Source: a virus. From it: a DNA stretch of 47,903 bases. The notes under the pieces are model-generated. The model saw nothing but the letters and a program-made list of their open reading frames with translations, was not told the origin of the DNA and ran no database searches. A program made the position numbers and the translations under genes. Positions within the stretch are counted from its first letter, which is position 1. Each line of letters opens with the position of its first letter. The stretch spans positions 1 to 47,903 of IMG/VR virus record IMGVR_UViG_3300035662_000043. One strand, 5' to 3'. Of the stretch, positions 3,543-23,733 are shown in pieces.

Positions 3543-3850
3543 AGCGGTTGCCCTATCATGTTTTCGAGGTAGGCTTTAGCTTCTTTCAATGACTTAACAG
3601 GCAGATCACCACTTGCTGTATCTTTCCTGAGCAAAGAAATCATAGCTAAAGCCAGCTCCTCGTTCTTACCCCGTAGAATCGCGCCCCTAAACCAATTATG
3701 TATTGTTATACGAGACACGTTGAGTGCCTGTGCAACATACTTGGCTGGTAGATTAGCCTTCACACATTCTTGCGCCAGCATGACGCCAACACGATGGGTG
3801 TTCTTGCTAAACACTTCATCAATAAATTCTTTGCTGTAAGGACGCGGCAT
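3539..3850 (-). CDS. Small helix-turn-helix DNA-binding protein
   Basis: 103 residues. A central helix-turn-helix (AKYVAQALNVSRITIHNWFRG, read as two helices about residues 37-57) matches the Cro/transposase-type HTH pattern with a conserved Trp in the recognition helix. A good Shine-Dalgarno (AAGAGGAAAA) precedes the ATG. It sits between the candidate ssDNA-binding gene and the Cys-rich peptide gene, overlapping the latter by ATGA. A transcription regulator is the likeliest role, and it is a candidate binder of the dispersed palindromes in this arm; that link is inference. Confidence 0.7.
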   Translation of the reverse strand: MPRPYSKEFIDEVFSKNTHRVGVMLAQECVKANLPAKYVAQALNVSRITIHNWFRGAILRGKNEELALAMISLLRKDTASGDLPVKSLKEAKAYLENMIGQPL

Positions 3851-11411: not shown

Positions 11412-11614
11412 GGCGCACCTCTCTCGCGGATAGCGAACGCGCAACTTACCCAAGACGCATCGACTCGTTCACCTTCAGCCTCACACACCTTCGCACACGC
11501 CTCGCGCTCTGCTGCTGCGACTAATTTTGCGAAACTTCTTAAAGCGTAGTGCTGATCTTTTGATGGATATGGCAAAAACTCTCTTATCAATTTACTCAAT
11601 TCTTCATCAGTCAT
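11408..11614 (-). CDS. Small helical protein, paralogue of its upstream neighbour
   Basis: 68 residues. FAKLVAAAEREACAKVCE is a motif I recognise from many small phage proteins of unknown function. It ends in IRERGAP exactly like the adjacent upstream gene, and the DNA around both stops is near identical, so the two arose by tandem duplication. Start and stop both overlap neighbours by 4 nt. Confidence 0.7.
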   Translation of the reverse strand: MTDEELSKLIREFLPYPSKDQHYALRSFAKLVAAAEREACAKVCEAEGERVDASWVSCAFAIRERGAP

Positions 11615-11829
11615 GGCGCACCTCTCTCCCTTATCGCTGCGGCTATCGCCAACGTGCCATAGCCCTCTATGCCCATCTGTTCAACCAACGTAGCTATCGC
11701 TTCACGGTCTGCTGAAGTGATAAGACGCGCAAGCGCCTCCAAACTGTTGACCGATTCTTTTACGTTGCCCTCGTATCTGTGAAACTGAAATCCTGCCTCG
11801 TGTGCCATCCTGATCAAATCTTCGCGCAC
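11611..11829 (-). CDS. Small helical protein, tandem paralogue
   Basis: 72 residues starting at a GTG with GGGAG about 7 nt upstream. LARLITSADREAIATLVEQMG aligns with the LVAAAEREACAKVCE region of the next gene, and both end AIRERGAP. This copy lacks the two cysteines. Function unknown. Confidence 0.7.
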   Translation of the reverse strand: MREDLIRMAHEAGFQFHRYEGNVKESVNSLEALARLITSADREAIATLVEQMGIEGYGTLAIAAAIRERGAP

Positions 11830-11874
11830 TTTGTTCTCCCGATCAAGAAATAAATATTAATCAAACTTTACAAA

Positions 11875-12147
11875 TCAATAGTCGTCCTCGATAAAATAAC
11901 TCGGTACGCGATCTTCTATGCGACGCCGTATCTCAACTTTTGTTTTGTTGATCTTTGCTACATCGGGTTTGGTGTACAGCCCACGCGCATCTGGCTTTAT
12001 CTTTTCAGTCACTGGTTTCAAATAGAGTTCTTCCATCGTATAAAAACTTTCTTTGCAACCCGTACAACGGCGCTGTCTTCGTACTCCCTTTTCTGTTTTT
12101 ATTGTATTGATCACAGCTGATCTTTTATCGCCACATCCACAAAACAT
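11875..12147 (-). CDS. NrdR-like zinc-ribbon protein
   Basis: 90 residues from the ATG at 12147 (AAGG 9 nt upstream). The N-terminus has FCGCGDKR, then GVRRQRRCTGCKESFYTMEE. This closely mirrors the zinc ribbon of the ribonucleotide-reductase repressor NrdR (two Cys pairs, then an Arg-rich strand and F-x-T-x-E). The ATP-cone domain of NrdR is absent. It may bind DNA or RNA. One palindromic repeat lies 35 nt upstream of its start. Confidence 0.6.
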   Translation of the reverse strand: MFCGCGDKRSAVINTIKTEKGVRRQRRCTGCKESFYTMEELYLKPVTEKIKPDARGLYTKPDVAKINKTKVEIRRRIEDRVPSYFIEDDY

Positions 12148-12181
12148 AATTAAGCACCTTGAATAGACAAAAAAATAGCGA

Positions 12182-12197
12182 TTCAGGTCACCCTGAA
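12182..12197. repeat. Dispersed palindrome, copy 1
   Basis: TTCAGGTCACCCTGAA, a near-perfect palindrome with TTCAGG/CCTGAA arms, extended outward by AGCG/CGCT. It lies 35 nt upstream of the zinc-ribbon gene start. Confidence 0.75.
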
Positions 12198-12211
12198 CCG
12201 CTATATAAAAG

Positions 12212-12718
12212 TTAAATGTGTTGCGCGAGAATCTCACGCTCCAAGTACCACTTCGCTTTACGTAGGTCTTCTACGCGATTACCTTTGTGGTCGGCTCGTG
12301 TAATGTACTTCACCACGTTGCCCAAGTTATAGTTGAGCTGCTTGGCCTCGATGAAGTCAATCGTCTCAATCCCTCCTGTGGTGTAGTGCGGTGGGTTGTT
12401 AACAAAGTCCACATTCGAATTACCAAACTCGTAGTGCGTAACTTGCGGCACGTCTCCCGAACCCCGCATACGCGTCTTGTAACGTGGTGTAGTATCCACT
12501 GATGAGGATGGGATCAACCTCGGATTCGGCTGTACTACATACTTCGCCAACGGCGAACCCGCTGCGATTAGATCGACTACCTTATCCTTCAACGTCTTTC
12601 GCACGTAATACACATTAGCGATGTTAACGCCCAAAGCTGTTGCAATATCTTTTGGTATCGCGTTTGGGTGCTTCTTCATGTATGCGCGAATACGCTTTGC
12701 GTCAGTTCTTTTAGCCAT
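12212..12718 (-). CDS. HTH protein with C-terminal DUF3310 domain
   Basis: 168 residues from the ATG at 12718 (GAGGG about 8 nt upstream). Residues 1-50 form a basic helix-turn-helix (IPKDIATALGVNIANVYYVRK). The C-terminus from VNNPPHYTTGGIETIDFI through GNVVKYITRADHKG and DLRKAKWYLEREI is a typical DUF3310 domain, found in phage proteins often labelled nucleotide-kinase-like. A DNA-binding N-terminus fused to DUF3310 suggests a regulatory or replication accessory role. Confidence 0.8.
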   Translation of the reverse strand: MAKRTDAKRIRAYMKKHPNAIPKDIATALGVNIANVYYVRKTLKDKVVDLIAAGSPLAKYVVQPNPRLIPSSSVDTTPRYKTRMRGSGDVPQVTHYEFGNSNVDFVNNPPHYTTGGIETIDFIEAKQLNYNLGNVVKYITRADHKGNRVEDLRKAKWYLEREILAQHI

Positions 12719-12719
12719 C

Positions 12720-12926
12720 TTAGTTTCCCTCTCGGTTGTGTTTAAATAAATAGTCATCACGATACTCGGATGGTGGTGTCCATCCATGCTTACGCCAGAC
12801 TGCTTGCACGTTCGCCCCCGGCTTCCACTTAAAGTCATCTATCAGACGACTATGTTTTGGCTGAGAGCGAAAGATTCCTGCTTCGGGTACGACCATGTAG
12901 TCATCCCCCACGACTCTGAATTTCAT
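12720..12926 (-). CDS. Hypothetical 68-aa protein
   Basis: 68 residues, basic and aromatic (KHGWTPPSEYRDDYLFKHN). It starts 26 nt inside the VRR-NUC gene end and stops one base before the ATG of the DUF3310 gene. Function unknown. Confidence 0.65.
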   Translation of the reverse strand: MKFRVVGDDYMVVPEAGIFRSQPKHSRLIDDFKWKPGANVQAVWRKHGWTPPSEYRDDYLFKHNREGN

Positions 12927-13203
12927 GGTTTATTAACTCCTCTAGTTGTGAGACGTTAGTCTCGTTAATCAACAAAGCAATGCCACCGCACTTGCGTATG
13001 TCCTCTAAGTTTTTTAGTTGAAGCGCAGTTGGCTTGCCGCCGTTGGCTTTGTACTCAACAGCGACAAACCACCCACGATAACAACCAACGTCATCAGGTA
13101 CACCGCTTCGACCATACCCACCAGAGAACGGAGGAAAGTGATACATCCCCATCTTGGTAAGTATGGCTCGGCCTTGCTTCTTAACTTTAGCTTCGGGTGT
13201 CAC
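12901..13203 (-). CDS. VRR-NUC domain nuclease
   Basis: 100 residues, nearly all one VRR-NUC (PD-(D/E)XK) domain: GRSGVPDDVGCYRGWFVAVEYK supplies the catalytic D and E-x-K, then GGKPTALQLKNLEDIRKCGG and a hydrophobic strand. Stand-alone phage VRR-NUC proteins are thought to act on branched DNA such as Holliday junctions. It starts at a GTG that overlaps the upstream stop by 17 nt. Confidence 0.85.
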   Translation of the reverse strand: MTPEAKVKKQGRAILTKMGMYHFPPFSGGYGRSGVPDDVGCYRGWFVAVEYKANGGKPTALQLKNLEDIRKCGGIALLINETNVSQLEELINHEIQSRGG

Positions 13204-13558
13204 CTTTTAACTCTTCCAGTTGTGTTTCCGTCAAAATTACCACCATGTATCGCTTGGATAATTGCCAGCCGATAGTCTCAAACCCTTCGAACGGAAGCAT
13301 TGAATACAACATGATTGCAAACGATGGGTTATCATGCTCAGTCAACGTATCGTCAATTAACAGTTCAGGTTTGGCTGAAGCCTTAATCATCGACAGCTTC
13401 AGCGCAAGAAAGTCAGGCAACGTGTCCGACGTAAACTTTCGTACAAAATTATCTCCAACGAACACGGTATGTATATCCCCTTCCTGATAAATAGGAACGC
13501 GATAATACTTCTGACTCTCGTCCTCTACATTAGCTGTCAGCGGCGATAAGTACATCAT
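13187..13558 (-). CDS. Hypothetical 123-aa protein downstream of the MoxR/VWA module
   Basis: The ATG at 13558 overlaps the upstream stop (ATGA), so it is preferred to the ATG five codons earlier. 123 residues of mixed alpha/beta composition: LTEHDNPSFAIMLYSMLPFEGFE in the middle and an acidic tail. No domain recognised. It is part of the run of genes behind the 17.96 kb promoter. Confidence 0.65.
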   Translation of the reverse strand: MMYLSPLTANVEDESQKYYRVPIYQEGDIHTVFVGDNFVRKFTSDTLPDFLALKLSMIKASAKPELLIDDTLTEHDNPSFAIMLYSMLPFEGFETIGWQLSKRYMVVILTETQLEELKGDTRS

Positions 13559-14508
13559 ACAAGGAACAACCATCTAGGCTTGGCCGGAAAGAAATCATGA
13601 CGCCATCCGTCAGTATCTACTCTGTAGAGACCTAACTCCTCGTTGTAACTATCACGGCCTAACGGAAAGAACTGCTCCTCGCCAACGAACCTCATGTCTG
13701 GGTCATCCTTTTGTCCAAGTACTTTGTACATAGCCAAGCGAGAGGCGAAGTCTGGGTCATCCATGAATCTATCAACGCGCTCACACTTGACTGCTACAGG
13801 TCTAGCATCGTCTACACGATAGTCCTCATCAAGTTTGATGCCAATGTTTATCTCACCTTTGAGGAACGTATCTGTGCTGTCGTACATGAGAAACTTTACT
13901 GGTTTGTCAAACACTTCTTTGACTATATTTAGTTTTTCCTCTCTAGTCTTATCGACCTTATCGTAATCGTCAAGAATTTTCTTAAATTTCTCCATTGATT
14001 CTAACGATAGATTCTCCAAAGGCTGATAGCCAAAAGCTACCTTCAACAAACGATGCAGAGACTCGCCGTTCAGAGGATTATGTTTACCCACATTCTTTTG
14101 TTTTGCCAACACGATATTAACTAGATCGTAAAAGTGATTAAGTTTGACAAACACCTCTAACGAATCATTGGGCAACAGGTGATACTTTTCTATGTTACGC
14201 ATCAGTACAGACACTTTCGCGGCAGCATAGGTCATCCTGTCCTCTGTCGTACGCCCGCGCTCCTTCGGTGTAATTACTGTGCGGAAAGTGTATTGCCCAT
14301 CACGATTAAAACCAGCAATACCCAATACCATGCCCTCGTTGTTTGCTATGTAGAAACAGTTGTTCTCGTCGTCTACAGACCAGTTGGATTGTTTTATCCC
14401 TATCACATGCAGCTTGTACTTATGAACAATCTCACGAACCAGCGGGTATGCTTTCGTCATGATGATTTGCGATTCAGCTATACGTGAACTCATAATTGGA
14501 TGGATCAT
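13555..14508 (-). CDS. Hypothetical 317-aa protein linked to the MoxR/VWA module
   Basis: 317 residues. Good Shine-Dalgarno (AAGGGG) before the ATG, and the VWA gene stop is one base away, so it belongs to the same operon. The N-terminal half contains NCFYIANNEGMVLGIAGFN, which reads like a compact sensor or acyltransferase-like fold. A charged helix follows near residues 185-215, and the C-terminal half ends FFPAKPRWLFLV. No known family recognised. It could be a substrate, adaptor or structural partner of the ATPase. Confidence 0.7.
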   Translation of the reverse strand: MIHPIMSSRIAESQIIMTKAYPLVREIVHKYKLHVIGIKQSNWSVDDENNCFYIANNEGMVLGIAGFNRDGQYTFRTVITPKERGRTTEDRMTYAAAKVSVLMRNIEKYHLLPNDSLEVFVKLNHFYDLVNIVLAKQKNVGKHNPLNGESLHRLLKVAFGYQPLENLSLESMEKFKKILDDYDKVDKTREEKLNIVKEVFDKPVKFLMYDSTDTFLKGEINIGIKLDEDYRVDDARPVAVKCERVDRFMDDPDFASRLAMYKVLGQKDDPDMRFVGEEQFFPLGRDSYNEELGLYRVDTDGWRHDFFPAKPRWLFLV

Positions 14509-14509
14509 G

Positions 14510-15757
14510 TTATTCCCCTTCGATGATTAGTTTCTTACCGCTTGGTGGTACAAAGCGGCTGTTGCCTTTCACAAGCCACAGCGTATCGACTGTCGCCGCC
14601 CATTGGATGTTGTCCTCAAGGTAACCGTCAGTCAGTATCACCGCGCAGTCTGGTGTGAGTTTGTTCTTGATGATGTACTCCGATACACAGGAAGCCCGTG
14701 TACCACCGCCGCCTTGTGGCTTAAGTAGCTTTCGGATGTTGTCGTAGTCATCAGTAAACACTTGCTCCCCATGCACATGCGTATCCCACCACAGCACACG
14801 TACCTTCTCTGGCCTACAAGTCTCACACGCAGCAGCAATCTGTACTGCTACCGCAGCCAAATCTGCGTCACCTATCGAGCCTGAAGTATCCACAGCGAAC
14901 AGCACTTCTGTGATGGTCTCAGACTCAACGCTTGGCGCAAGAATGTCATTGGCAAGCAAACTGCGATTGAACCTACGCCACGTTAGTTCATCTGCGCCAC
15001 GTACCGATGTCTTGACGTAATCCTGCAACTCCTTACGCCAATCGACAGGGGATACCAGAGACTCCTCTAGCTCTCGCGGCATCTTAGTTCCAAGCCGACC
15101 AGCAAGCATCCCGCCCTCGCGCAACGCTTTGCCGATCTTCTCTTCTAACTCTTTCATCTCTTCCGGTGTCTTACCCTCCGTACCTTGTGCGTCATGTTCG
15201 TCGGAGCCTTCGGTTGAATGTGTCTTACCGTTAACTACGACTTCACCCTTCCCTGAACCGTTAGATTGTCCGCTACCGTCCGGCTGTGTCCGGCTTTGTC
15301 CGCTACTGTCCGGCGGTGGTGGGTTCTGCTTCTTGAGATCGTTGTATATCTCACGCACAGACCAGCCATCGTAGTGAGGATCAAAGATGCCCCCCTCCGG
15401 TAGCTTGCATAGCTTCTTGTCATTCAGTCTGTTGATGATGTTGTTGACCACGATGTCCATTGCCACGTTAGCCAGCAAGCGGTTCTCATCCATCAAATCC
15501 TTGTGTCGAGGAATGTGCATCAACGCTACATGTAAATTCTCATGCAGAATCAACCCGCGTAGTTCTTCGTCACTCAGCTTCTCAATGAACTTGGCTGAAT
15601 ACTTCTTGTTGAGCCCATCGGTGTACGCAGTAAACATCTCGTCTGATACATGAGATTCACCTGCCATGATCACGCCTGAGTACAACGCCGTCTCTGGATG
15701 TCGCATCAATGCGATATGATTCTTTTTCATCCTCTCTTCTGGTGTGATGCTAATCAT
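14510..15757 (-). CDS. VWA-domain protein with N-terminal metallopeptidase motif (DUF2201-like)
   Basis: 415 residues from the ATG at 15757 (AAAGGG 8 nt upstream; a TTG farther up is less likely). Residues 72-76 carry HENLH, a zinc-peptidase HExxH motif. A low-complexity Pro/Ser/Gly linker spans about 145-175. The C-terminal VWA domain has a MIDAS motif DTSGS at 290-294, then GGGGT and ILTDGY. This peptidase-like plus VWA layout is that of DUF2201 proteins, usually paired with a MoxR ATPase, which is exactly the gene just upstream. Likely the VWA partner of that chaperone-like ATPase. Confidence 0.85.
   Translation of the reverse strand: MISITPEERMKKNHIALMRHPETALYSGVIMAGESHVSDEMFTAYTDGLNKKYSAKFIEKLSDEELRGLILHENLHVALMHIPRHKDLMDENRLLANVAMDIVVNNIINRLNDKKLCKLPEGGIFDPHYDGWSVREIYNDLKKQNPPPPDSSGQSRTQPDGSGQSNGSGKGEVVVNGKTHSTEGSDEHDAQGTEGKTPEEMKELEEKIGKALREGGMLAGRLGTKMPRELEESLVSPVDWRKELQDYVKTSVRGADELTWRRFNRSLLANDILAPSVESETITEVLFAVDTSGSIGDADLAAVAVQIAAACETCRPEKVRVLWWDTHVHGEQVFTDDYDNIRKLLKPQGGGGTRASCVSEYIIKNKLTPDCAVILTDGYLEDNIQWAATVDTLWLVKGNSRFVPPSGKKLIIEGE
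15242..15257. repeat. Dispersed palindrome, copy 2 (inside the VWA gene)
   Basis: TTCACCCTTCCCTGAA followed by CCGTTA. It lies in the codons of the SGKGE part of the linker and matches copy 3 at the start of the same gene, so it may have spread by recombination. Confidence 0.6.
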
Positions 15758-15760
15758 CGG

Positions 15761-15776
15761 TTCACCCTTTCCTGAA
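15761..15776. repeat. Dispersed palindrome, copy 3
   Basis: TTCACCCTTTCCTGAA followed by CTGTTAAT. It sits directly upstream of the VWA gene ATG and contains its Shine-Dalgarno on the leftward strand. Confidence 0.7.
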
Positions 15777-15783
15777 CTGTTAA

Positions 15784-16920
15784 TCAAAGATACTTGTAGT
15801 TAGTCATCGCCCATTGCTTGACTGTCTCATTGCCAGCAGCCAGCTTGGTGGTGCGCTTGTTGTCCAACAGCATCGTAAAGAAAAGACTCTGTAACTCGTC
15901 TTGCTTCATACGCTGAATGAACTGCATAAAGCTAGACAAATCATCCTGCGTTTGAATCTCATCGACTGCATTGATCATCGTCATGCACAAAGCCGCAATG
16001 TCCTCTGGAAGAATAATTCCCATTGGGTCTTTGATAATTTCTCTGACCGGTGTTACTTGAGACTCCATGTCGATGAACACAGACAACAGCTTCGCACCCG
16101 ACAGGCCAATCGTGCCAGCCAACGCAACATCAGCCGCCGCTTTGCCCCACACGTTGCGGTTCTTGACGATACGGTTGCACTTCGACAACGAACGTGGCGA
16201 GATGAACGATACCGTCTGCGTAGGCTTAGTCGGGTTGAAGATGAACTCGTTGTTCTCCTGCCCACCATCCATGTAAGAGTTCAACACGCGAGGATTCATA
16301 GCAACGAACGCACGAATCGTCGAACTGATACCGTTATCACCAGCCCACTTGATCCAACGCCGAGCATCAGGCTTCTCCATACGCATGAGACAAATACGGT
16401 TGCCCTGATGCGCTTGCATCGCGTCACCCACACCATCGCTTGAGTTATTAGATGTAGCAAAGACGATAGACCCAATAGGCAGCGGTCGATCACCTACCAT
16501 GCGCTCTAACTTCAGGCGAGTAAACAGCGTACCCATCAGCTTGGGAACCTTGAACACCTCGTCAAGCATGATTACTTTAGGCTTGTCCGAATCTAGCTTG
16601 AACAGCGCGCCGATGTATTGCTCAAGAGACTTCTCAACGTGATTAGGGATAGTGCCAGAGATGTCCATGTAGTCCTTCGATGGGCAATCCACGTAGATGT
16701 AGTCATACTTGTCTGTAGGACAAACGTCTTTAGGGCGACGCCACTTGTCGCCATTGTTCTGAGCAATGAGTTTCAGAATAGATGTCTTACCTACTCCGGG
16801 CTCGCTGATAATGACAGGCGTGACATGATCGTCTGATTCTTCAGTTGTCTCTGACATTACAGGAATCATCGCAGCGAGCTGCTCGATGTTGACGGTGTCG
16901 GTGAAATGAATCTTAGCCAT
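15784..16920 (-). CDS. MoxR-type AAA+ ATPase
   Basis: 378 residues. Walker A is EPGVGKTS (40-47), Walker B VIMLDEV (DE at 120-121), and sensor 1 FATSN follows. These match MoxR/CobS-family AAA+ ATPases, which act as chaperones with a VWA-domain partner (RavA-ViaA, NorQ-NorD, CobS-CobT). Good Shine-Dalgarno AAAGGA. The stop is 26 nt from the VWA gene ATG. In this phage it probably remodels a protein or inserts a metal together with its neighbours. Confidence 0.9.
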   Translation of the reverse strand: MAKIHFTDTVNIEQLAAMIPVMSETTEESDDHVTPVIISEPGVGKTSILKLIAQNNGDKWRRPKDVCPTDKYDYIYVDCPSKDYMDISGTIPNHVEKSLEQYIGALFKLDSDKPKVIMLDEVFKVPKLMGTLFTRLKLERMVGDRPLPIGSIVFATSNNSSDGVGDAMQAHQGNRICLMRMEKPDARRWIKWAGDNGISSTIRAFVAMNPRVLNSYMDGGQENNEFIFNPTKPTQTVSFISPRSLSKCNRIVKNRNVWGKAAADVALAGTIGLSGAKLLSVFIDMESQVTPVREIIKDPMGIILPEDIAALCMTMINAVDEIQTQDDLSSFMQFIQRMKQDELQSLFFTMLLDNKRTTKLAAGNETVKQWAMTNYKYL

Positions 16921-16949
16921 GATTTGTTTCCTTTCGGGTTGTGAGTTAA

Positions 16950-17855
16950 TTAGATACTACGTGGTGCAAACTTCGACAGGATGTCATCCATCTCGTCTTT
17001 TACTTGTGACCGTACTGCATCTGAATCACGCAACGCTTCTGCATCAACGCCGCGCAACGCTAGGTCAAGCCTAGTTACTGCTTCATCCAACGCTGAATCG
17101 TTAGTCAGGTTGAAGTCTTTGAAGAGACGACAATACTCTTTCGCCTTGTCCACCGTACCCTCGTATATCTTGCGCTTCTTCTGCTTGGTCTCGCCATCGG
17201 TCGTTGTTGTCTCATCGTACCCGCAGCAATGCGCGAGTGACTCCATGACATCAACCAACCTCTCTACCTGATCGTTCAGGATGCCCTGAACTATTGTTTC
17301 CGCTTGGCGACTGTAATGTGTATTCAAGTCATTAGCCAAGTCCTGCGCTATCGCGCACCGATAGTCGCCCACCGGAACCTCGCTGGTGTACAGCGTGACC
17401 CCGAACTTGTTACGCACCTGATCCACCGTCGGGTAGTCATCGCGGTTAAACATATCGCCCTGCGCGAACGCCATGTTCGACACCGTTGTGTTGTAGTTGT
17501 TACAGAAGTTGTCTAAAAGACGCGTGAACTCAATCTCGTGCCAGTCAAACTCCTGCATGAACTTGGGCAACGCTACGTACGGCAGATAGTCCTGCGACTT
17601 GTTCCACGGATAGGTCGAACGCTGTATCCAGTTGTAGATCGTCTGACGATAGTTCAGCAACGCCTTGTGGTCGACGTTGTTCGCCAGCAAGTTTTTAACG
17701 AACCTGCCTGCATTCGTATCGGCTTTCTTTGCGGTAGTAACCTCATTGCTGATGGCTCGGTCTTGCTTGGTAGCTGACCAGACGTTGACCTCGACTGCGA
17801 CCAGAAGGCCGCTGGTTGCGAGTGACGTGATGTGCTGTGGTTTATTGAGTTCCAT
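16950..17855 (-). CDS. DUF3150-like protein, first gene of the MoxR/VWA operon
   Basis: 301 residues. An N-terminal VAVEVNVWSATKQDRAISNEV matches the opening of DUF3150 proteins as I recall them (W-x-x-x-K-x-D-R). Helical stretches and an acidic C-terminus follow. DUF3150 genes commonly neighbour MoxR-like ATPase and VWA genes, as here. Clear Shine-Dalgarno (AAAGGA). It is the first gene behind the strong promoter at 17.96 kb, with one palindromic repeat 31 nt upstream of its start. The molecular role of the family is not known. Confidence 0.7.
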   Translation of the reverse strand: MELNKPQHITSLATSGLLVAVEVNVWSATKQDRAISNEVTTAKKADTNAGRFVKNLLANNVDHKALLNYRQTIYNWIQRSTYPWNKSQDYLPYVALPKFMQEFDWHEIEFTRLLDNFCNNYNTTVSNMAFAQGDMFNRDDYPTVDQVRNKFGVTLYTSEVPVGDYRCAIAQDLANDLNTHYSRQAETIVQGILNDQVERLVDVMESLAHCCGYDETTTTDGETKQKKRKIYEGTVDKAKEYCRLFKDFNLTNDSALDEAVTRLDLALRGVDAEALRDSDAVRSQVKDEMDDILSKFAPRSI

Positions 17856-17885
17856 GATGTTTCCTTTCGTTTCGTTGATGAGTGA

Positions 17886-17901
17886 TTCAGGTGACCCTGA
17901 A
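17886..17901. repeat. Dispersed palindrome, copy 4
   Basis: TTCAGGTGACCCTGAA followed by CCGTTAACT. It lies between the -10 box of the leftward promoter and the DUF3150-like gene start, inside the transcript leader. Confidence 0.8.
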
Positions 17902-17943
17902 CCGTTAACTGCGTTGCGTGCTACTTTCCCTTACCACACTATA

Positions 17944-17972
17944 ATTATACTATAACTTGACATATTAGTCAA
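17944..17972 (-). promoter_or_regulatory. Strong leftward sigma-70 promoter
   Basis: -35 TTGACT (17967-17972), 17-bp spacer, -10 TATAAT (17944-17949). It drives the DUF3150-like/MoxR/VWA operon. Confidence 0.85.
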
Positions 17973-17974
17973 GT
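17955..17974. promoter_or_regulatory. Operator-like inverted repeat over the -35 box
   Basis: Perfect 7-bp arms ACTTGAC and GTCAAGT with 6 bp between them, covering the -35 box. The same element, with one mismatch, overlaps the promoter at 20.57 kb. A repressor bound here would block polymerase. Confidence 0.7.
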
Positions 17975-17990
17975 AGTTTACTCGTGTTTT

Positions 17991-18098
17991 TTAGATGACC
18001 CAGAACCATAACTGCGGATACGTGTAGGCAACCCAACCACCCAAGCACGTAAGCGCAGCTGGCGCAGCCGCCAGAGCAAGCAGAAGCCAGTTACCCAC
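17991..18098 (-). CDS. Very small membrane protein (35 aa)
   Basis: GTG start at 18098, overlapping the upstream stop by 8 nt, with GGAGG about 8 nt before it. The 35 residues are almost wholly hydrophobic (NWLLLALAAAPAALTCLGGW), one transmembrane helix with a short aromatic tail. It ends just before the 17.96 kb promoter. Function unknown. Confidence 0.55.
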   Translation of the reverse strand: MGNWLLLALAAAPAALTCLGGWVAYTYPQLWFWVI

Positions 18099-18306
18099 GG
18101 CGCTTGCCTCCCCTGACGCTAAAGATTTTGTCGCCATCCTCATCCAGCACCGCATAGCCACTTTCGGTCAGCTCAATAGCCCAATCCCTACGCGCTATGC
18201 GGTCGAGCATGTACATAATCTTATGCCTAAAAATCTTTTTACTGACGTGTTGTGCTACTACCACACAGCCAAGTACTATCGTTGCTATCTCGTAGAAGTT
18301 ATCCAT
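18091..18306 (-). CDS. Small membrane-anchored protein
   Basis: 71 residues from the ATG at 18306 (GGAG 9 nt upstream); an in-frame ATG at 18321 is the alternative. An N-terminal hydrophobic helix (FYEIATIVLGCVVVA) is followed by a basic stretch and a short cytoplasmic domain that ends RGGKRRG. Function unknown. Confidence 0.6.
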   Translation of the reverse strand: MDNFYEIATIVLGCVVVAQHVSKKIFRHKIMYMLDRIARRDWAIELTESGYAVLDEDGDKIFSVRGGKRRG

Positions 18307-18307
18307 C

Positions 18308-18658
18308 TCATAGTTCTCCATGCGTTTCTTTAAAAGTGGTTGCTTCGCTTCCAGTATCCCCCTCGGCTACCTGATCCGCAGTCAAGTTGGCTATCTGCAC
18401 CAGCTTCTCCTCCACCTGCTCGTCGGTCAGCCAGCCGATCACGTCACCCTCTGAACAGACATCTTTCGGGTAGATAAGTACGTAGTTACCCCCCTCCCCC
18501 TCGAACCGGATAACGCCTAGCTCCCACAGACCCTCGTCGCCTCCGTAGGTAAACTCACCCCTGACAACAGACGCACCAGCCCCGTTGGGGAAGCGGTAAA
18601 GTTTCTGTACAGACGTAGGCTCATGCTTGATCACCACGTCGTAAGGTCTTATATCCAT
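18308..18658 (-). CDS. Hypothetical acidic protein (116 aa)
   Basis: 116 residues, beta-rich at the N-terminus (a Gly-rich turn GGDEGLWELGVIRFEGEGG) with an acidic helical C-terminus. Shine-Dalgarno AGGGAGG lies upstream, inside the end of the preceding small gene. No domain recognised. Confidence 0.7.
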   Translation of the reverse strand: MDIRPYDVVIKHEPTSVQKLYRFPNGAGASVVRGEFTYGGDEGLWELGVIRFEGEGGNYVLIYPKDVCSEGDVIGWLTDEQVEEKLVQIANLTADQVAEGDTGSEATTFKETHGEL

Positions 18659-18777
18659 CCCATCCTCCCTTTGGTCTTGACGATCAACGCCAGCCAGAAT
18701 TCTCTCGCCTGACGGTCATGGTCTATTCCCCGGAGAACGCGCTTGGCATCGCGTATTACTTTCTTATATCGTTTCAT
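18649..18777 (-). CDS. Small basic protein (42 aa)
   Basis: 42 residues, strongly basic: MKRYKKVIRDAKRVLRG then REFWLALIVKTKGRMGWI. The ATG overlaps the upstream stop (ATGA) and lies directly beside a GGAGGG Shine-Dalgarno inside a palindromic repeat. It overlaps the next start by 10 nt. Function unknown. Confidence 0.65.
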   Translation of the reverse strand: MKRYKKVIRDAKRVLRGIDHDRQAREFWLALIVKTKGRMGWI

Positions 18778-18941
18778 TTCAGCCCTCCCTGAAGAGTTAC
18801 TTTCCTCACGGCTGCATCAGCCGACGCTGCGCGTACGAACGCCGCTGTCCATGCCTTCGGATGCCAGCCGCACGTACCTAGTTGCCCTTGTGGGCGAACA
18901 CACCACTCGCCATTGCGTAGTTGAATAGCTTCTAGTTTCAT
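18774..18941 (-). CDS. Small protein (55 aa)
   Basis: 55 residues: RNGEWCVRPQGQLGTCGWHP, then WTAAFVRAASADAAVRK. Two cysteines and the CGW.P.AWTAAFV pattern are familiar from small phage proteins of unknown role. Both ends overlap neighbours as ATGA, and GGGAGGG precedes the start, so it is very likely translated. Confidence 0.7.
   Translation of the reverse strand: MKLEAIQLRNGEWCVRPQGQLGTCGWHPKAWTAAFVRAASADAAVRKVTLQGGLK
18778..18793. repeat. Dispersed palindrome, copy 5
   Basis: TTCAGCCCTCCCTGAA. On the leftward transcript it reads UUCAG-GGAGGG-CUGAA, a 5-bp hairpin whose loop is the Shine-Dalgarno of the adjacent 42-residue gene. Confidence 0.75.
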
Positions 18942-19150
18942 TTCACCAGCCCTCCCTTGTTGTTCAACCCCTTCAAGTCAGCCAAGTCTGTGACCAACAC
19001 GTAATTGCTCTTGTGCATCGGTGCGATGGTGCGCTTGATCCCCCGTGCCGCTTGCTCTCCGCATGGTTTACAAGTCTTTGCCCCGATAGCCCACCTAGCT
19101 AGGGCGTACTCCGCCCCGCACAACATGCACTCTGGAACGTAATCTTCCAT
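18938..19150 (-). CDS. Small zinc-finger protein (70 aa)
   Basis: 70 residues from the ATG at 19150 (GGGAGGGG just upstream). CMLCGAEYALARWAIGAKTC with a following KPCG gives a four-cysteine C-x2-C...C-x2-C zinc site near the N-terminus, and the C-terminal part is basic. Possibly a DNA/RNA-binding or adaptor protein. Confidence 0.7.
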   Translation of the reverse strand: MEDYVPECMLCGAEYALARWAIGAKTCKPCGEQAARGIKRTIAPMHKSNYVLVTDLADLKGLNNKGGLVK

Positions 19151-19166
19151 GTCACCCCTCCCTGAA
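19151..19166. repeat. Dispersed palindrome, copy 6
   Basis: GTCACCCCTCCCTGAA followed by CTGTTAAT, directly upstream of the zinc-finger gene ATG and containing its Shine-Dalgarno. Confidence 0.7.
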
Positions 19167-19169
19167 CTG

Positions 19170-19538
19170 TTAATCAATGTGTATGCTTCGACTGAGTCTG
19201 AGTCTGCCGCCGCATAACCCTGCCTCGTAATGCTCCACATCGTCGTAACTCTCGCCCACACGCATAAACTCGTAGCCGTACTTGCTGTCGTGATGCTCCG
19301 CGCAGAACGTCTCCTGAAAGTCAGTAAAGAGTTTCTCTAGCCGACGTATGGATGGATAGTCTGGATACCACTTCCATTGCTCCGCAGTAAACACCACCTC
19401 GGTATCATGGAACTCAAAGTAATCTATCTCATCGTCGTGTATGTGTTGCTTTAGCCACGTAGTCATGATTGCGCCCGCGCCCTTGTCATCGGGTTTGCTG
19501 GTGTACATGATGCACGTCACGTCAGAACGGTAGCCCAT
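19170..19538 (-). CDS. Hypothetical 122-aa protein
   Basis: 122 residues from the ATG at 19538, with GGGAGGGG upstream. It begins GYRSDVTCIMYTS, an opening seen in many phage proteins of unknown function, then alternates aromatic and acidic residues (YFEFHDTEVVFTAEQWKWYP). Its start lies 17 nt inside the preceding gene. It may share a fold with the upstream 171-aa protein, but I cannot show that. Confidence 0.7.
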   Translation of the reverse strand: MGYRSDVTCIMYTSKPDDKGAGAIMTTWLKQHIHDDEIDYFEFHDTEVVFTAEQWKWYPDYPSIRRLEKLFTDFQETFCAEHHDSKYGYEFMRVGESYDDVEHYEAGLCGGRLRLSRSIHID

Positions 19539-20037
19539 CTTCCCCTCCCTTCGCATAGAAGTTGTTCGATATAGCCACGTCGATGTTCAAGTCCAAGTAC
19601 CGCCGATATGCGCCCAGACGTACCACGTCGCTGTCTTCGATAGTCCTGTACACGTTGAACTTCACCCAGACATGTTCTAGCGCATAGCCCTCGGTCGGCT
19701 CGTCACCCTCGCCCCACCACACGCTGTCATCGTCGTAGTCAGGCAGGAACGTCTCCTTGTAGTCATGGATCAACGCGTTTAACTGCTCGTAGTCGTGTGA
19801 TGTATGAAATGTTCCACCCACGATAATCCCACGCGGCTCCATCACGTCACACCACCCGCCGTATGACGTGTTGAACCCCTGCTTTTCCCACCACCCCTTG
19901 AGAACAGCAAACTCGCCTCTGGCTCGTGCCACCTGAGACTGTTTGTCCTCCTCGGTGTAGTACTTCAGGATACGGTTGTCCACCTCAGCAGTCGATGTGT
20001 AAAAGGCAACGTGTGCCTTGAGAAGTTTTATGCTCAT
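19522..20037 (-). CDS. Hypothetical 171-aa protein
   Basis: 171 residues, acidic and aromatic: YGGWCDVMEPRGIIVGGTF in the middle and DDDSVWWGEGDEP later, with alternating strands and helices. It overlaps both neighbours (4 nt upstream, 17 nt downstream). No family recognised. Confidence 0.7.
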   Translation of the reverse strand: MSIKLLKAHVAFYTSTAEVDNRILKYYTEEDKQSQVARARGEFAVLKGWWEKQGFNTSYGGWCDVMEPRGIIVGGTFHTSHDYEQLNALIHDYKETFLPDYDDDSVWWGEGDEPTEGYALEHVWVKFNVYRTIEDSDVVRLGAYRRYLDLNIDVAISNNFYAKGGEDGLPF

Positions 20038-20234
20038 AGGTCACAGTCTCCACCCAACCCCTGCATGTTCTCCCACAGGTCTAACTCCAGCTGAATCCAC
20101 AGCGGCATGTCGTCGGCTTCGGTTACTGTGGCTAGAAACTCCTGCTCGGCATCTGCCAACGCTTGACCCATCAGGTCAGGCATATTCTCGCGCCATTCTT
20201 GCATCTCGATCATTAGTTGTTTGATACGTCCCAT
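20034..20234 (-). CDS. Hypothetical 66-aa acidic protein
   Basis: 66 residues, all helical and acidic (MIEMQEWRENMPDLMGQAL and LELDLWENMQGLGG). AAAGGAGC precedes the ATG. It is joined to the next gene by ATGA overlap. A DNA-mimic or protein-binding role is possible but speculative. Confidence 0.65.
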   Translation of the reverse strand: MGRIKQLMIEMQEWRENMPDLMGQALADAEQEFLATVTEADDMPLWIQLELDLWENMQGLGGDCDL

Positions 20235-20266
20235 GATGTTGCTCCTTTCGATTAATTAAATAACAG

Positions 20267-20282
20267 TTCAGATCACGCTGAA
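20267..20282. repeat. Dispersed palindrome, copy 7
   Basis: TTCAGATCACGCTGAA. It spans the stop codon of the 65-aa gene and lies 33 nt upstream of the next gene start. Confidence 0.65.
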
Positions 20283-20465
20283 CGCTTGATCGTCACCGTC
20301 GTAGAACCAGTCTGTGTAACTGTAGATACTGCCCTCGTTGCTGAAGTACTGCCCATGCAGCGGCTCTTCTACGTATTCTTCGAACCCTGCTTCCTCCAGA
20401 GAAACTATTAGGCCACGCTCCCGCGCAACGTCTTCCCACTCCATCTCATCGACTAAATCAAACAT
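20268..20465 (-). CDS. Hypothetical 65-aa very acidic protein
   Basis: 65 residues with about a quarter Asp/Glu and few basic residues (DEMEWEDVARERG, EEAGFEEYVEEPLHG). It is the first gene behind the 20.57 kb promoter. Such small early acidic proteins can be DNA mimics that block host enzymes; that is speculation from composition and position. Confidence 0.65.
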   Translation of the reverse strand: MFDLVDEMEWEDVARERGLIVSLEEAGFEEYVEEPLHGQYFSNEGSIYSYTDWFYDGDDQAFSVI

Positions 20466-20489
20466 GGTGAACCCTTTCGTAAATAGTGA

Positions 20490-20505
20490 GTCAGGTGACC
20501 CTGAA
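20490..20505. repeat. Dispersed palindrome, copy 8
   Basis: GTCAGGTGACCCTGAA followed by CTGTTAAAT, in the leader between the 20.57 kb promoter and the 65-aa gene. It is almost identical to copy 4, which has the same relation to the 17.96 kb promoter. Confidence 0.8.
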
Positions 20506-20565
20506 CTGTTAAATAAAAATGCTGGTGTTGGATGCTATCTAGCTACATTGCTCTCCAACAGTATA

Positions 20566-20594
20566 ATTATAGCATAACTTAACATATAAGTCAA
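20566..20594 (-). promoter_or_regulatory. Strong leftward sigma-70 promoter with operator
   Basis: -35 TTGACT (20589-20594), 17-bp spacer, -10 TATAAT (20566-20571). The inverted repeat at 20577-20596 (one mismatch) matches the operator of the 17.96 kb promoter. Confidence 0.85.
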
Positions 20595-20596
20595 GT

Positions 20597-21112
20597 TGTT
20601 TGGGTGACTTTTTTAGGCAGGGGTTTGTTCTGATTTTGGGCTGGTGAGATGAGTTTTGGAACGAAAAAAGGGCTGAAAACCCGCATTATTCCGTGAGGGT
20701 GTTCTGAGGAAAATGGTTGCCAGAACAGAAAAAGTACGCGTAAGTGTTTGTATTTCTTATTTTATTTTTTAACATAAACTATATATAGTTGTTCTGTTCT
20801 AGAAAAAATATGAGTACGCTTCCTTCGGAGTGAATTTTGCACTTGCCACAGGACTCGACCGATCCGTAAAAAATCGTGCGTTTCCCTCCCCCTACCCCAA
20901 AAACACCGGAACATTGGAACAAACGCTGAAAACCCGCATAAATCCTAGCTTTTCTTGTTCTGCCTGACCCTGTTTGTTCCGGCTTTTTTGGAACAAGCTA
21001 TCGGAACAAGGCAACTCAGCGTCATTTAAGCAAACGGTAAATGATGCAACTCACAATAATTTCCGCCGAACGAGCCTTTTCCATCAACATGGTGTAAAAG
21101 TTAATTTAACGA
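20597..21112. other. Non-coding region with GGAACA/AGAACA cluster (candidate origin or control region)
   Basis: No gene is visible here. RGAACA hexamers (either strand) occur at 20626, 20700, 20722, 20790, 20795, 20908, 20916, 20956, 20975, 20990 and 21003, plus GGAACG at 20658; fewer than one would be expected by chance. The copies at 20975 and 20990 form TTGTTCC/GGAACAA, a 7-bp inverted repeat. GCTGAAAACCCGCAT occurs twice (20672-20686 and 20925-20939), each a few bases after a GGAAC copy. An A/T-rich stretch lies at about 20750-20790. Iterons plus an A/T-rich segment resemble a replication origin, but a regulator-binding region is equally possible. Confidence 0.55.
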
Positions 21113-21128
21113 GTCAGGCATAGCTGAA
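21113..21128. repeat. Dispersed palindrome, copy 9
   Basis: GTCAGGCATAGCTGAA, a weaker copy (TCAG/CTGA arms). It opens the first of three related spacer segments that precede terminators at 21.2, 22.06 and 22.94 kb. Confidence 0.5.
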
Positions 21129-21194
21129 CTCTTATTTAACGCGCTTGCCCGCGCACGCGCGAGGACAAAGAACTGGTTTCAAAAACGCAGGCGC

Positions 21195-21226
21195 AAAAAA
21201 GCCGACGCGTCTTGCGACGCGTCGGC
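21195..21226 (-). terminator. Rho-independent terminator of the 215-aa gene
   Basis: Perfect 11-bp stem GCCGACGCGTC/GACGCGTCGGC with a TTGC-type loop, followed on the leftward strand by six T. Confidence 0.9.
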
Positions 21227-21231
21227 TAAAA

Positions 21232-21879
21232 TTACTTCACATCATACTCTTTCCAGAATGCCGCACTAGCTCTTGCTAGTTTCTTGCTATCGGCAGTAGG
21301 ATCATTTCCCCTTACTTCGGCAGTCTTGCATCGGGTCTTGAATGTCTCAAACTCTTTTTCCAGAAACTCAATCATCGCAAGAGTAGCTGCTCTGGTCTGC
21401 GTTTTCGGATTACGTCGAGCATACTCTCGCTTTGCCGCAGCTATCAGATCATCCATGCAATTCTTGCAATACTTGTTGACCAGATCACGTAAAGCAAAGA
21501 TCACATTGTACTTAGCAAGATCATCGCGTTTCATCGCGCCGATAGCTTGCTGTGTGAAAGAATACGCATATGCGACGCCGATATTGACTACTTCTAGCGG
21601 CTTTGCATCCGGCGGCAGCTGGTCTACTGGAATGTAATTCCCGTCGATTACTGCGTATTCAGTAGCTGGATTATTAGCCTCATACCGCTTACGAAAACCA
21701 GCTTTAAGCTGGTCAATGTCCTCTTTAGCGGGCTCTGTTAAAAAGTTTTTAATGTTATCTAAAGCATACGCGCCATTCTTTTTGAGAATGTCCGAGCTAC
21801 CAGCTACTGAATAGCCGAAAGCCTCAAGGTCTTTGAAGGTTGATTCTACTGCTACTGCGATTTGGCTTTTCTTTGCCAT
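21232..21879 (-). CDS. Paralogous early protein A (215 aa)
   Basis: 215 residues, unknown family, roughly half identical to the next gene upstream. Shared blocks include ALDNIANFLTEPAKE-like, YAVIDGNYIPVDQLP, NIGVAYAYSFTQQA, NKYCKNC, and GNDPTADSK near the end. Two conserved cysteines sit in the central C-x2-C. Basic overall and mostly helical after residue 110. Good Shine-Dalgarno (AAAGGGG). It is a single-gene unit with its own promoter and terminator, which suggests a high or separately timed early dose. Confidence 0.8.
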   Translation of the reverse strand: MAKKSQIAVAVESTFKDLEAFGYSVAGSSDILKKNGAYALDNIKNFLTEPAKEDIDQLKAGFRKRYEANNPATEYAVIDGNYIPVDQLPPDAKPLEVVNIGVAYAYSFTQQAIGAMKRDDLAKYNVIFALRDLVNKYCKNCMDDLIAAAKREYARRNPKTQTRAATLAMIEFLEKEFETFKTRCKTAEVRGNDPTADSKKLARASAAFWKEYDVK

Positions 21880-21934
21880 GATAATGCCCCTTTGCGTAAG
21901 GATTAAACCGGCACTAATTTCATCCGGTAATTAT

Positions 21935-21964
21935 GTTATAGCTGATATCTAGCGAGAAAATCAA
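21935..21964 (-). promoter_or_regulatory. Leftward promoter of the 215-aa gene
   Basis: -35 TTGATT (21959-21964), 18-bp spacer, -10 TATAAC (21935-21940). A copy of the palindrome lies directly upstream of the -35 box. Confidence 0.65.
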
Positions 21965-21967
21965 TGT

Positions 21968-21983
21968 TTCAGGCATGGGTGAA
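21968..21983. repeat. Dispersed palindrome, copy 10
   Basis: TTCAGGCATGGGTGAA followed by TCGTTAAT, directly upstream of the -35 box of the 21.95 kb promoter. Confidence 0.6.
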
Positions 21984-22058
21984 TCGTTAATTAGCGCATG
22001 ACGCACACGCGCTCTGGCACGCGCGCGAGGACAAATAACTGGTTTCAAACGCAGGGCG

Positions 22059-22094
22059 AAAAAAAACCCTGCCAACCTTTCGGCTGGCAGGGTT
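22059..22094 (-). terminator. Rho-independent terminator of the 219-aa gene
   Basis: A long stem AACCCTGCCA/TGGCAGGGTT extended inward by ACC/GGC-type pairs with one mismatch, and a run of T on the leftward strand directly after it. Confidence 0.9.
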
Positions 22095-22099
22095 GAGTG

Positions 22100-22759
22100 T
22101 TACTGCTTGTTTAACATCTCATACTTGACCTTGAAAGCGATAATCGCTTCGCGTAAGGCCTTGCTGTCTGCGGTAGGATCGTTCCCTCTCGCCTCTGCTG
22201 TCTTGCAGCGCTGATTCCAAGCATCAAACTGCTTATCAAGGAACTCACCAAAAGCCAGCGTAGCAGCGCGTGTGGTTGATTCAGGATTGCGCTGCTTTTC
22301 TACCTTCCTTGCTGCTGCTTTCAAGTCTGACAAGCAGTTGAAGCAATACTTGTTTACCTTGTCACGCAGGTCTTGCAATATTTGATACTTGGGCAAATCC
22401 TCAGCCTTCAGCGCACCATATGCTTGCTGAGTGAACGAAAAGGCGTAAGCCACACCAATGTTGACGTTCTCCAGTACCTTAGCGTCAGCCGGTAGTTGAT
22501 CGCGTGGTATGTAATTACCGTCAACGACAGCGTAAGCAACATCGGGGTGAGTTTCACTGTAACGCTGACGAAAACCTTCTTTCAGTTCGCTGATTGCTTC
22601 CTTAGCCGGTTCGGTAAGAAAGTTTGCAATGTTATCCAAAGCCCAAGCCCCATCGAGGCGTGATGCGTCAGACTTTTTAGCCACGCTATAACCAAAGTCG
22701 CGGTAGGACTTGTACGACACTTCCTGTACTGCTAATGCAATGGCAGTTTTCTTAGCCAT
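22100..22759 (-). CDS. Paralogous early protein B (219 aa)
   Basis: 219 residues, paralogue of the 215-aa protein just downstream. The same conserved blocks are present: ALDNIANFLTEPAKE, YAVVDGNYIPRDQLP, NIGVAYAFSFTQQAYGAL, NKYCFNC and GNDPTADSK. The N-terminal 30 residues and the region after NKYC differ most. It has its own promoter at 22.83 kb and terminator at 22.06 kb. Function unknown; the duplication suggests dosage or a divergent target. Confidence 0.8.
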   Translation of the reverse strand: MAKKTAIALAVQEVSYKSYRDFGYSVAKKSDASRLDGAWALDNIANFLTEPAKEAISELKEGFRQRYSETHPDVAYAVVDGNYIPRDQLPADAKVLENVNIGVAYAFSFTQQAYGALKAEDLPKYQILQDLRDKVNKYCFNCLSDLKAAARKVEKQRNPESTTRAATLAFGEFLDKQFDAWNQRCKTAEARGNDPTADSKALREAIIAFKVKYEMLNKQ

Positions 22760-22814
22760 GATATTGCTCCTTTATGTAGTTGATAAAAGGCCAGTATTTA
22801 TCTGGCATAATTAT

Positions 22815-22843
22815 CTTTTAGCTGACACTACAGATAAAATCAA
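22815..22843 (-). promoter_or_regulatory. Leftward promoter of the 219-aa gene
   Basis: -35 TTGATT (22838-22843), 17-bp spacer, -10 TAAAAG (22815-22820) or the nearby GATAAT. It is clearly related to the 21.95 kb promoter (TTGATT, then GTCAGCTAAAAG against ATCAGCTATAAC). Confidence 0.55.
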
Positions 22844-22846
22844 CGT

Positions 22847-22862
22847 TTCAGGATAGGCTGAA
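22847..22862. repeat. Dispersed palindrome, copy 11
   Basis: TTCAGGATAGGCTGAA followed by CCGTT, directly upstream of the -35 box of the 22.83 kb promoter. Confidence 0.65.
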
Positions 22863-23502: not shown

Positions 23503-23733
23503 TTAGAAGCGTGCGCCGAGTAAGCGTCCGCGTTTGCCGATCAGTACAGTTGCACCAACCGGGTAGCACTTAGCCCAACCAAGTGCGTCGTCGTAGTCAC
23601 GAGCAAACCGTACTGACTCGATGCTTTCCCACCGCGCGACTACTACGTAGCAGGTTAAGCGATACCACAATGTCCGTATTGGATGGGCATTGAGATTAGC
23701 TTTGGTGAATTTGAATAACAGCTTCTTTGCCAT
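23503..23733 (-). CDS. Hypothetical 76-aa basic protein, first leftward gene
   Basis: 76 residues, basic, with a hydrophobic centre (TLWYRLTCYVVVARW) and SVRFARDYDDALGWAKCYPVG. GAAAGG precedes the ATG. It is the promoter-proximal gene of the leftward arm, hence probably expressed very early. Function unknown. Confidence 0.7.
   Translation of the reverse strand: MAKKLLFKFTKANLNAHPIRTLWYRLTCYVVVARWESIESVRFARDYDDALGWAKCYPVGATVLIGKRGRLLGARF

Follow-up and report, generated by a model that had tools for sequence, protein, structure and literature searches.

Which factor reads a palindrome that recurs along the early genes of a phage, and is it read as DNA or as RNA? This question is raised by the viral record IMGVR_UViG_3300035662_000043 (IMG/VR), whose positions 1 to 47,903 were analysed (hereafter the window). 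The first-pass annotation had listed eleven copies of a 16-bp palindrome of the TTCAGG-N4-CCTGAA type at leftward gene starts and promoters, and had proposed a regulon-wide operator or an RNA element specific to early genes. In this study we report that the repeat is real, regulon-wide and conserved, and that its four-base core differs among related phages that keep its spacing. With slightly more confidence than doubt, we propose that the copies are DNA operators for an autoregulated early phage repressor, most likely the 219-residue product of gene 22100-22759 (p219) and perhaps also its paralog, acting by promoter block and elongation roadblock.

A symmetrical dyad along the early genes

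All eleven listed 16-mers were found where they had been placed, and a matrix scan added five more (11701, 13364, 14473, 17082 and 17275), giving 16 copies in the window, all within 11701-22862. Each copy is a symmetrical dyad of about 30 bp, TTA-N4-TTCA-N8-TGAA-N4-TAA, or in full TTA-N4-TTCA-SS-NNNN-SS-TGAA-N4-TAA (S, G or C), with a nearly invariant TTCA and an outer arm resembling TTAAC. The constrained part of the originally described motif is TTCA/TGAA, the rest of the signal being the outer TTA/TAA and a preference for G or C at the next two positions. The C(C/T)GTTAA said to follow most copies is one arm of this longer dyad and is exact in just 4 of the 11.

The untrained dyad TTCA-N8-TGAA was found 13 times against 1.0 expected (Poisson 8e-11), all between 11701 and 22847; this frequency, together with positions kept in relatives, bears out the two points that the annotation had singled out for checking. 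The symmetric 32-bp matrix, trained on 14 sites, recovers those 14 as well as 17082 and 11701. The 16 sites score 19.6-37.8, against 8.2 for the next best match in the window and a top score of 16.9 across 60 shuffled windows (16-site matrix). With the looser pattern TTCAGGNNNNCCTGAA at up to three mismatches, 31 matches were obtained, compared with a mean of 18.7 and a maximum of 29 in 100 shuffles. The copies at 17275 and 17082 are weak members of the set.

Replication and early genes occupy the left half of the window, with leftward transcription, while late genes, including the terminase gene, run rightward from about 24.1 kb. Near-identical DNA (99.955% and 99.995%) in record G001, of 65,485 bases with a 127-bp end repeat, spans the entire window; the window thus represents about three quarters of a complete genome. 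As had been claimed, the late arm of the window holds no copy, nor do the 17.5 kb of G001 beyond it (23-base pattern, up to two mismatches).

Six of the 16 copies lie in genes (11701, 13364, 14473, 15242, 17082, 17275), those at 18778 and 20267 overlap the 3' end of the preceding gene, and the others lie in leaders, ribosome-binding sites, promoters, a terminator or intergenic DNA. The announced placement in leaders, at Shine-Dalgarno sites or upstream of -35 boxes holds for many copies, but not for the six within genes or the one in the terminator. The features are listed below, the operators without strand; G and L numbers denote the records and loci compared, and group A, to which the window belongs, has the TTCA core.

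11701-11716: operator core dyad in gene 11611-11829; present also in L114
12182-12197: operator fused with an intrinsic terminator (hairpin 12204-12175, minus strand)
13364-13379: operator in gene 13187-13573, codon 67; at codon 67-68 in 6 of 6 group-A genomes
14473-14488: operator at the start of gene 13555-14508 (codon 9)
15242-15257: operator in the VWA gene, about codon 169 from ATG 15757 (166-167 in ortholog-map numbering)
15761-15776: operator overlapping the Shine-Dalgarno region of the VWA gene (ATG 15757)
17082-17097: weak operator in gene 16950-17855; window only
17275-17290: operator in gene 16950-17855 (301 amino acids), codon 191; in 5 of 6 group-A genomes
17886-17901: operator in the leader of gene 16950-17855, about +44 of promoter 17972-17944
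18778-18793: operator overlapping the Shine-Dalgarno region of a small gene (ATG 18777) and the end of gene 18774-18941
19151-19166: operator overlapping the Shine-Dalgarno region of a 70-residue zinc-ribbon-like gene (ATG 19150)
20267-20282: operator upstream of gene 20034-20234, overlapping the end of gene 20268-20465
20490-20505: operator in the leader of gene 20268-20465, about +62 of promoter 20594-20566
21113-21128: operator not near the start of any mapped reference gene
21968-21983: operator abutting the -35 box of the promoter of the p219 paralog (21232-21879)
22847-22862: operator abutting the -35 box of the promoter of the p219 gene (22100-22759)
22100-22759, minus strand: p219, 219-residue candidate operator-binding regulator; follows the operator core
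21232-21879, minus strand: p219 paralog, 215 residues; follows the operator core
21935-21964, minus strand: promoter-like TTGATT-18-TATAAC of the p219 paralog, lined up with relatives
22815-22843, minus strand: promoter-like TTGATT-17-TAAAAG of p219; many relatives have TATAAC where the window has a weak -10
20566-20594, minus strand: promoter-like TTGACT-17-TATAAT, 11 of 12 consensus matches
17944-17972, minus strand: promoter-like TTGACT-17-TATAAT, 11 of 12 consensus matches

The 15242 site is kept at the same place in all six group-A genomes, and the 17082 site was not seen in the five others aligned there. A conserved peptide may account in part for the site at codon 191 (17275), since G003, which has another core, keeps it too. 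Promoter-like matches show no excess across the region (11 found, 17.1 expected), so promoters 20594 and 17972 are called on their near-consensus sequence; the +62 and +44 distances assume start sites 7 nt beyond the -10 box.

Core switches at conserved positions

Relatives keep the spacing and many of the between-gene positions, while the four-base core differs. It is TTCA in group A, TCCA in L046-L049 and G021 (group B), CCTA-N8 in G005 and L056 (C) and CCTA-N7 in G003 and L041 (D). Further cores are TTCG/TCCG in L097 and L098, CCCA in L100 and TACA in L108; groups E to G have 4 to 10 pattern matches each, and L098 repeats the L097 sites. At a matrix score of at least 17 we counted 75 sites in group A (6 genomes), 53 in B (5), 16 in C (2) and 11 in D (3). 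The arrangement core-N8-core' is common to the cores (N7 in group D), and the outer arms have a TTA-like consensus, weaker in B than in C and D. A few TTCA-core sites also occur in L054 and L105, loci with diverged genes.

The CCTA phages of groups C and D are the closest kin of the window in conserved early genes: identity is 86-88% for the AAA protein, 90-94% for the 301-residue protein and 73-86% for the VWA protein, falling to 23% in other early genes. At orthologous starts (the 301-residue gene, the VWA gene, 20268 and 20034) and at the operon end, a CCTA operator in C/D stands near the TTCA operator of the window. At the operon end the window reads TAGCG-GTTCAGGGTGACCTGAAT-CGCTATTTTTTTG and L041 reads TAGCG-TCCTAGCCCCGCTAGGA-CGCTATTTTTTCG; the flanks TAGCG...CGCTATTTTTT are common, and L041 and L124 depart from the window in the centre alone. 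The terminator hairpin at this place keeps, in G005 and L130, an A-like TTCAG...CTGAG with a spacer one base shorter, and a CCTA operator lies just downstream. The start of the AAA gene carries an operator in the five other group-A genomes and none in the window.

Most in-gene TTCA sites are eroded in C/D. In the VWA gene of G003, 12 nt are missing in frame, corresponding to the left half-site found in the window, G006 and G010, and the 13187 gene of G003 and L041 keeps the right half CCTGAACTGTT and has lost the left. These remnants in G003, L041, G005 and L130 may be read as fossils of an ancestral TTCA network, a direction of change that is suggested because other group-A genomes carry the same sites. 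Thus the proposal of a regulon-wide early-gene operator is well supported by the fixed spacing, the conserved positions in diverged phages and the concerted core switches.

L055 and L057, relatives with 47-61% identity in shared genes, have GTATT-N4-AATAC (14 copies in L057), and p219 was not detected in either. DSL-LC04 and HTVC027P have terminases 53% and 47% identical, and TTCA-N8-TGAA is absent from the five top dyads in the first 50 kb of each. In the same part of DSL-LC04 (L081) the top dyad is CGGC-N7-GCCG (11 against 1.9 expected).

p219 and the alternative explanations

Twenty-two window genes were compared with 8 A-type and 7 C/D-type loci, and 17 had homologs (at least 60% of length) in both. 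Among these 17, the identities point to p219 and its paralog as the only early genes that clearly follow the core: the best A relative is 38 points more identical than C/D for p219 (54-67% in 6 A loci against 28-29% in 3 C/D loci) and 20 points for the paralog. Among the remaining 15, C/D is the closer group for 12 (by 4 to 40 points); there is one tie, and two genes stand at +2 and +3. Trees from in-frame alignments with bootstrap agree with this contrast. The window falls among C/D in the VWA tree (18 rows, 100/99) and in the AAA tree (19 rows, 99/100), and an A clade is rejected in both (approximately unbiased (AU) test, p 2e-36 and 8e-5). The p219 tree, of 30 rows, unites the main A copies in a single clade (13 rows, 98/95); joining the window p219 with C/D is rejected (AU p 0.003). 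The long C/D branch of this tree (length 1.71) can mean replacement or fast change, either of which would place the p219 change where the operators changed. The tree of the 301-residue protein needs two changes for A and has no starred branch, and the zinc-ribbon tree did not resolve.

Loci fetched with p219, several of which overlap contigs already included, follow the same trend: all 16 with at least 54% identity have at least one TTCA-type site, whereas 12 of the 16 at 28-41% have another core, L105 has TTCA, and L102, L106 and L109 are not callable. Moreover, 14 of the 15 A rows have the operator abutting the p219 promoter; the other row is truncated at this place but has an operator in the ortholog map, and an operator also precedes p219 in G021, G005, L056 and L097. 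In these upstream regions the operator, centred near -47 (counted by hand), is followed by TTGATT-like and TATAAC-like boxes in group A and by TTGACA-17-TAGAAT in group C. Such promoter-proximal copies at the gene of the candidate regulator further back the operator interpretation.

Two other elements were seen at these promoters. A second conserved element resembling CCAGTTATNTGTCSTCGCGCG, followed by a GC-rich run, lies about 40-60 bp upstream of operators 22847 and 21968, and recurs before p219 promoters in many group-A rows and, in partial form, in B rows. The p219 leaders (for example window 21935-21880, and relatives) often contain an inverted repeat, ACCGGAT...CCGGT, perhaps a leader hairpin.

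For the p219 of the window, Pfam and PHROGs gave no significant match (best Pfam TetR_C_11, E 0.18). Of the 30 family members, four touch phrog_11298, of unknown function (best E 1e-4), single members show scattered weak Pfam matches down to E 0.002, the family has no PDB relative by sequence, and tblastn gave no match in cultured phages or plasmids. AlphaFold2 models from 18 and 30 rows have a mean predicted local distance difference test (pLDDT) score of about 85.5 and a predicted template modelling (pTM) score of 0.63. The best VIA-align hit of the first model (Z 6.4) is to a helical stretch and lies within the range of unrelated helical models; a missing fold match to this predicted structure does not show that the fold is new. 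It is because of co-variation and gene position alone that DNA binding by p219 is suggested.

An RNA hairpin element in mRNA leaders would suit the copies that overlap Shine-Dalgarno regions, and two copies do fold: 12182 is an intrinsic terminator in the window (-20.9 kcal/mol, U tract) and, with its orthologs in five other genomes, a near-perfect palindrome, and 17886 folds well (z -3.1). Yet 4 of 6 sites tested by folding are unremarkable, and comparison of observed with shuffled halves over 75 sites from six related, and so not independent, genomes (G000, G006-G010) gave no inner position with compensatory pairing. Position 6 pairs 25 times (36 expected, lower-tail P 0.004), position 7 pairs 8 times (19-20 expected, P 0.0005) and position 0 pairs 10 times (17-19 expected, P 0.018), while the outer position -3 pairs slightly above expectation (33 against 26.8, P 0.05). 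Because inner bases vary without compensation and pair below chance, most copies are not RNA hairpins, 12182 alone doubling as a terminator; as a general explanation the hairpin is rejected on covariation, and we give this half of the original alternative hardly any credence. Centromere or partition sites of an extrachromosomal phage, of the parS or KorB/O_B type, are just as hard to credit. Many scattered palindromes do resemble O_B of RK2 or the centromeres of phage N15, but no ParA-type AAA_31 (PF13614) was matched in 12 group records, G001 included and several being fragments, and no ParB_N in 7 records, with positive controls in both searches; having found neither ParA nor ParB, we rejected partition sites. 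A positive early or middle regulator, with the copies as its activator or anti-silencing sites, is improbable: although two copies stand immediately upstream of -35 boxes (about -47), two others lie downstream of consensus promoters, one in a terminator and six in genes.

Operators for a host transcription factor such as a LexA-type repressor, with cores differing along with host boxes, have a slightly better but still small chance of being correct. Bacterial LexA boxes are palindromes that vary between taxa; however, a host factor gives no reason to expect that, of 17 comparable early genes, just p219 and its paralog would clearly follow the core. The same network might instead be read by another phage protein, which we consider unlikely, if the least so of these alternatives. 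The 103-residue, XRE-like product of gene 3539-3850 has the clearest match resembling a helix-turn-helix (HTH) apart from the primase among the window proteins scanned against Pfam (HTH_3, E 0.004, below cut-off), and in the first alignment its recognition helix is not the same in the 8 TTCA-core rows as in the 4 TCCA-core rows. Nevertheless, the helix SRATIHNWFRGA of TTCA-core phages also occurs in L124 and L130 (CCTA) and in L132 and L133 (TCCA), contigs with one or two sites each, and L130, L132 and L133 match group-A L129 over VSRATIHNWFRGA; this HTH_3 protein was thus rejected as the core determinant, as its helix does not follow the core. The zinc ribbon encoded at 11875-12150 passes the Pfam NrdR cut-off but is 75-84% identical in C/D against 40-49% in A relatives, the opposite of what a core-setting protein needs.

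Several observations weigh against assigning the operators to p219. Its co-variation with the core is a correlation, and the C/D contigs do not reach every gene; they gave no homolog of gene 23503-23733, which 4 of the 8 A loci have. No HTH or other known DNA-binding domain was detected in p219, which is only mildly basic (isoelectric point 8.6), and its first AlphaFold2 model gave no convincing known fold, Foldseek returning nothing at E <0.001 against PDB and BFVD. The p219 of L105 is 34-35% identical, yet its cores are TTCA; the second p219 copies of L037, L013 and L017, TTCA-core phages, form a separate clade outside the main A clade; and the TCCA-core rows are not one clade, TCCA being called in L103 on one site and in L099 on one matrix site and four TCCA dyads. 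Upstream of p219, L046 and L049 (group B) have no called operator and G003 has a degenerate one. A position at -47 would suit an activator too. C/D phages show almost no in-gene sites, so roadblocks inside genes would not be universal. Finally, in group A the arm on the transcription-upstream side is the stronger in 58 of 75 sites (24 of 30 in genes), and on average in all six genomes, although orthologous sites are not independent; this polarity recalls oriented stoperators, yet it is absent from groups B, C and D and not general.

From these sequence patterns we infer binding by p219, repression, the roadblock and a biological role as follows. A symmetric protein, presumably a dimer or tetramer, would contact, at fixed spacing, the two outer TTA/TAA steps and the two inner 4-bp cores. 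Seated against the -35 box of the p219 promoters, the repressor would stop initiation and so close an autoregulatory loop, whereas copies in leaders, ribosome-binding sites and genes would act as elongation roadblocks across an early region of roughly 11 kb, in which one strong copy is fused to an operon terminator. Phage_integrase (PF00589) and Resolvase (PF00239) had no match in the same 12 records, control genomes being positive; PF00940, the mark of a single-subunit phage RNA polymerase for which the repeats might have been promoters, matched none of 7 records, and control genomes were silent too. In a phage with no detected integrase, the network would damp or shut down early transcription in the course of lytic growth, and superinfecting relatives with the same core could be kept out. 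In related lineages the regulator would have changed specificity, with sites re-coded or eroded.

More tentatively, p219 may represent a new repressor class with an undescribed DNA-binding fold, governing a stoperator-like network in virulent phages in which repeated specificity switches drag the regulon along. If so, at least six cores would have arisen at one spacing and around ten dispersed operators would have changed with them while neighbouring conserved genes stayed 73-94% identical, and the contigs would preserve the intermediates: fossil half-sites, an in-frame 12-nt half-site loss, and a terminator whose hairpin is kept with its operator spacing broken.

Among neighbouring features, a VWA/metallopeptidase-like gene (DUF2201) adjoins an AAA ATPase gene at 14510-16920, a MoxR/VWA-like pair in the early operon, and the small NrdR-like protein is encoded by the first gene past the operator-terminator. 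Terminator-like sites are in excess overall (31 against 12.0 expected), and strong hairpins of this kind stand among the early genes at 21227-21200, 22094-22065 and 22958-22939, two of them directly after the p219 gene and its paralog.

Comparison with known systems

How repressor specificity can change when many operators must follow is an old question of phage immunity. In this clade, stages of such a rewiring can be seen in nature, between phages that remain much alike in their conserved genes. One would not expect a multi-operator repressor in apparently virulent phages, and a small protein family without known domain is here named as its candidate regulator. In the literature on stoperators, on relatives and on repressor/operator palindromes, of which most subscription papers were outside reach, no description of this system was found.

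Scattered operators are known from other replicons. Phage P1, a temperate plasmid prophage, has many C1 operators over its genome, read by a repressor without an obvious classical HTH; the likeness to our case lies in these two traits, and the difference in the asymmetry of the P1 operators and in the plasmid prophage state. KorB of plasmid RK2, a ParB-family protein, reads a dozen scattered palindromic O_B operators; these resemble the dyads in being scattered palindromes but measure 13 bp, and neither ParB_N nor ParA was detected here.

The lytic T1-like phages Stevie and TLS carry 22-bp and 21-nt repeats in 16 and 21 copies, which their authors liken to stoperators and whose role is unknown (PMC4319613, PMC11447400). 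As far as the accessible portions of those reports go, these repeats differ from ours in being oriented with transcription, mostly intergenic and of another consensus, and no regulator or specificity series is described for them.

The closest parallel is found in the temperate cluster A mycobacteriophages such as L5 and Bxb1, at least in the sections of the source papers available to us (PMC6550527, PMC9283540). Their genomes each carry 20-30 stoperators, at promoters and elsewhere, that block elongation; a monomer, with an HTH at its N terminus and a stoperator domain, binds the site, which is asymmetric and 13 bp long, and heteroimmune relatives have distinct site consensuses that change together with the repressor (PMC6550527, PMC9283540). 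To the extent covered by those sections, our phages are alike in having many copies of one site in promoters and away from them (16, of which 2 abut -35 boxes and 6 are in genes), and in a site consensus that differs among relatives together with the repressor, if p219 is taken as such and with the exceptions given above. They differ in the symmetrical dyad of about 30 bp, confined to one genome arm, in that no integrase or ParA was detected, and in a candidate protein without a recognised fold. Because the asymmetric site and the temperate gene set are both lacking, we do not file the system as a cluster A-type member. By analogy, we infer that it works like the cluster A stoperator system and would constitute a variant of it, differing in site symmetry and gene set.

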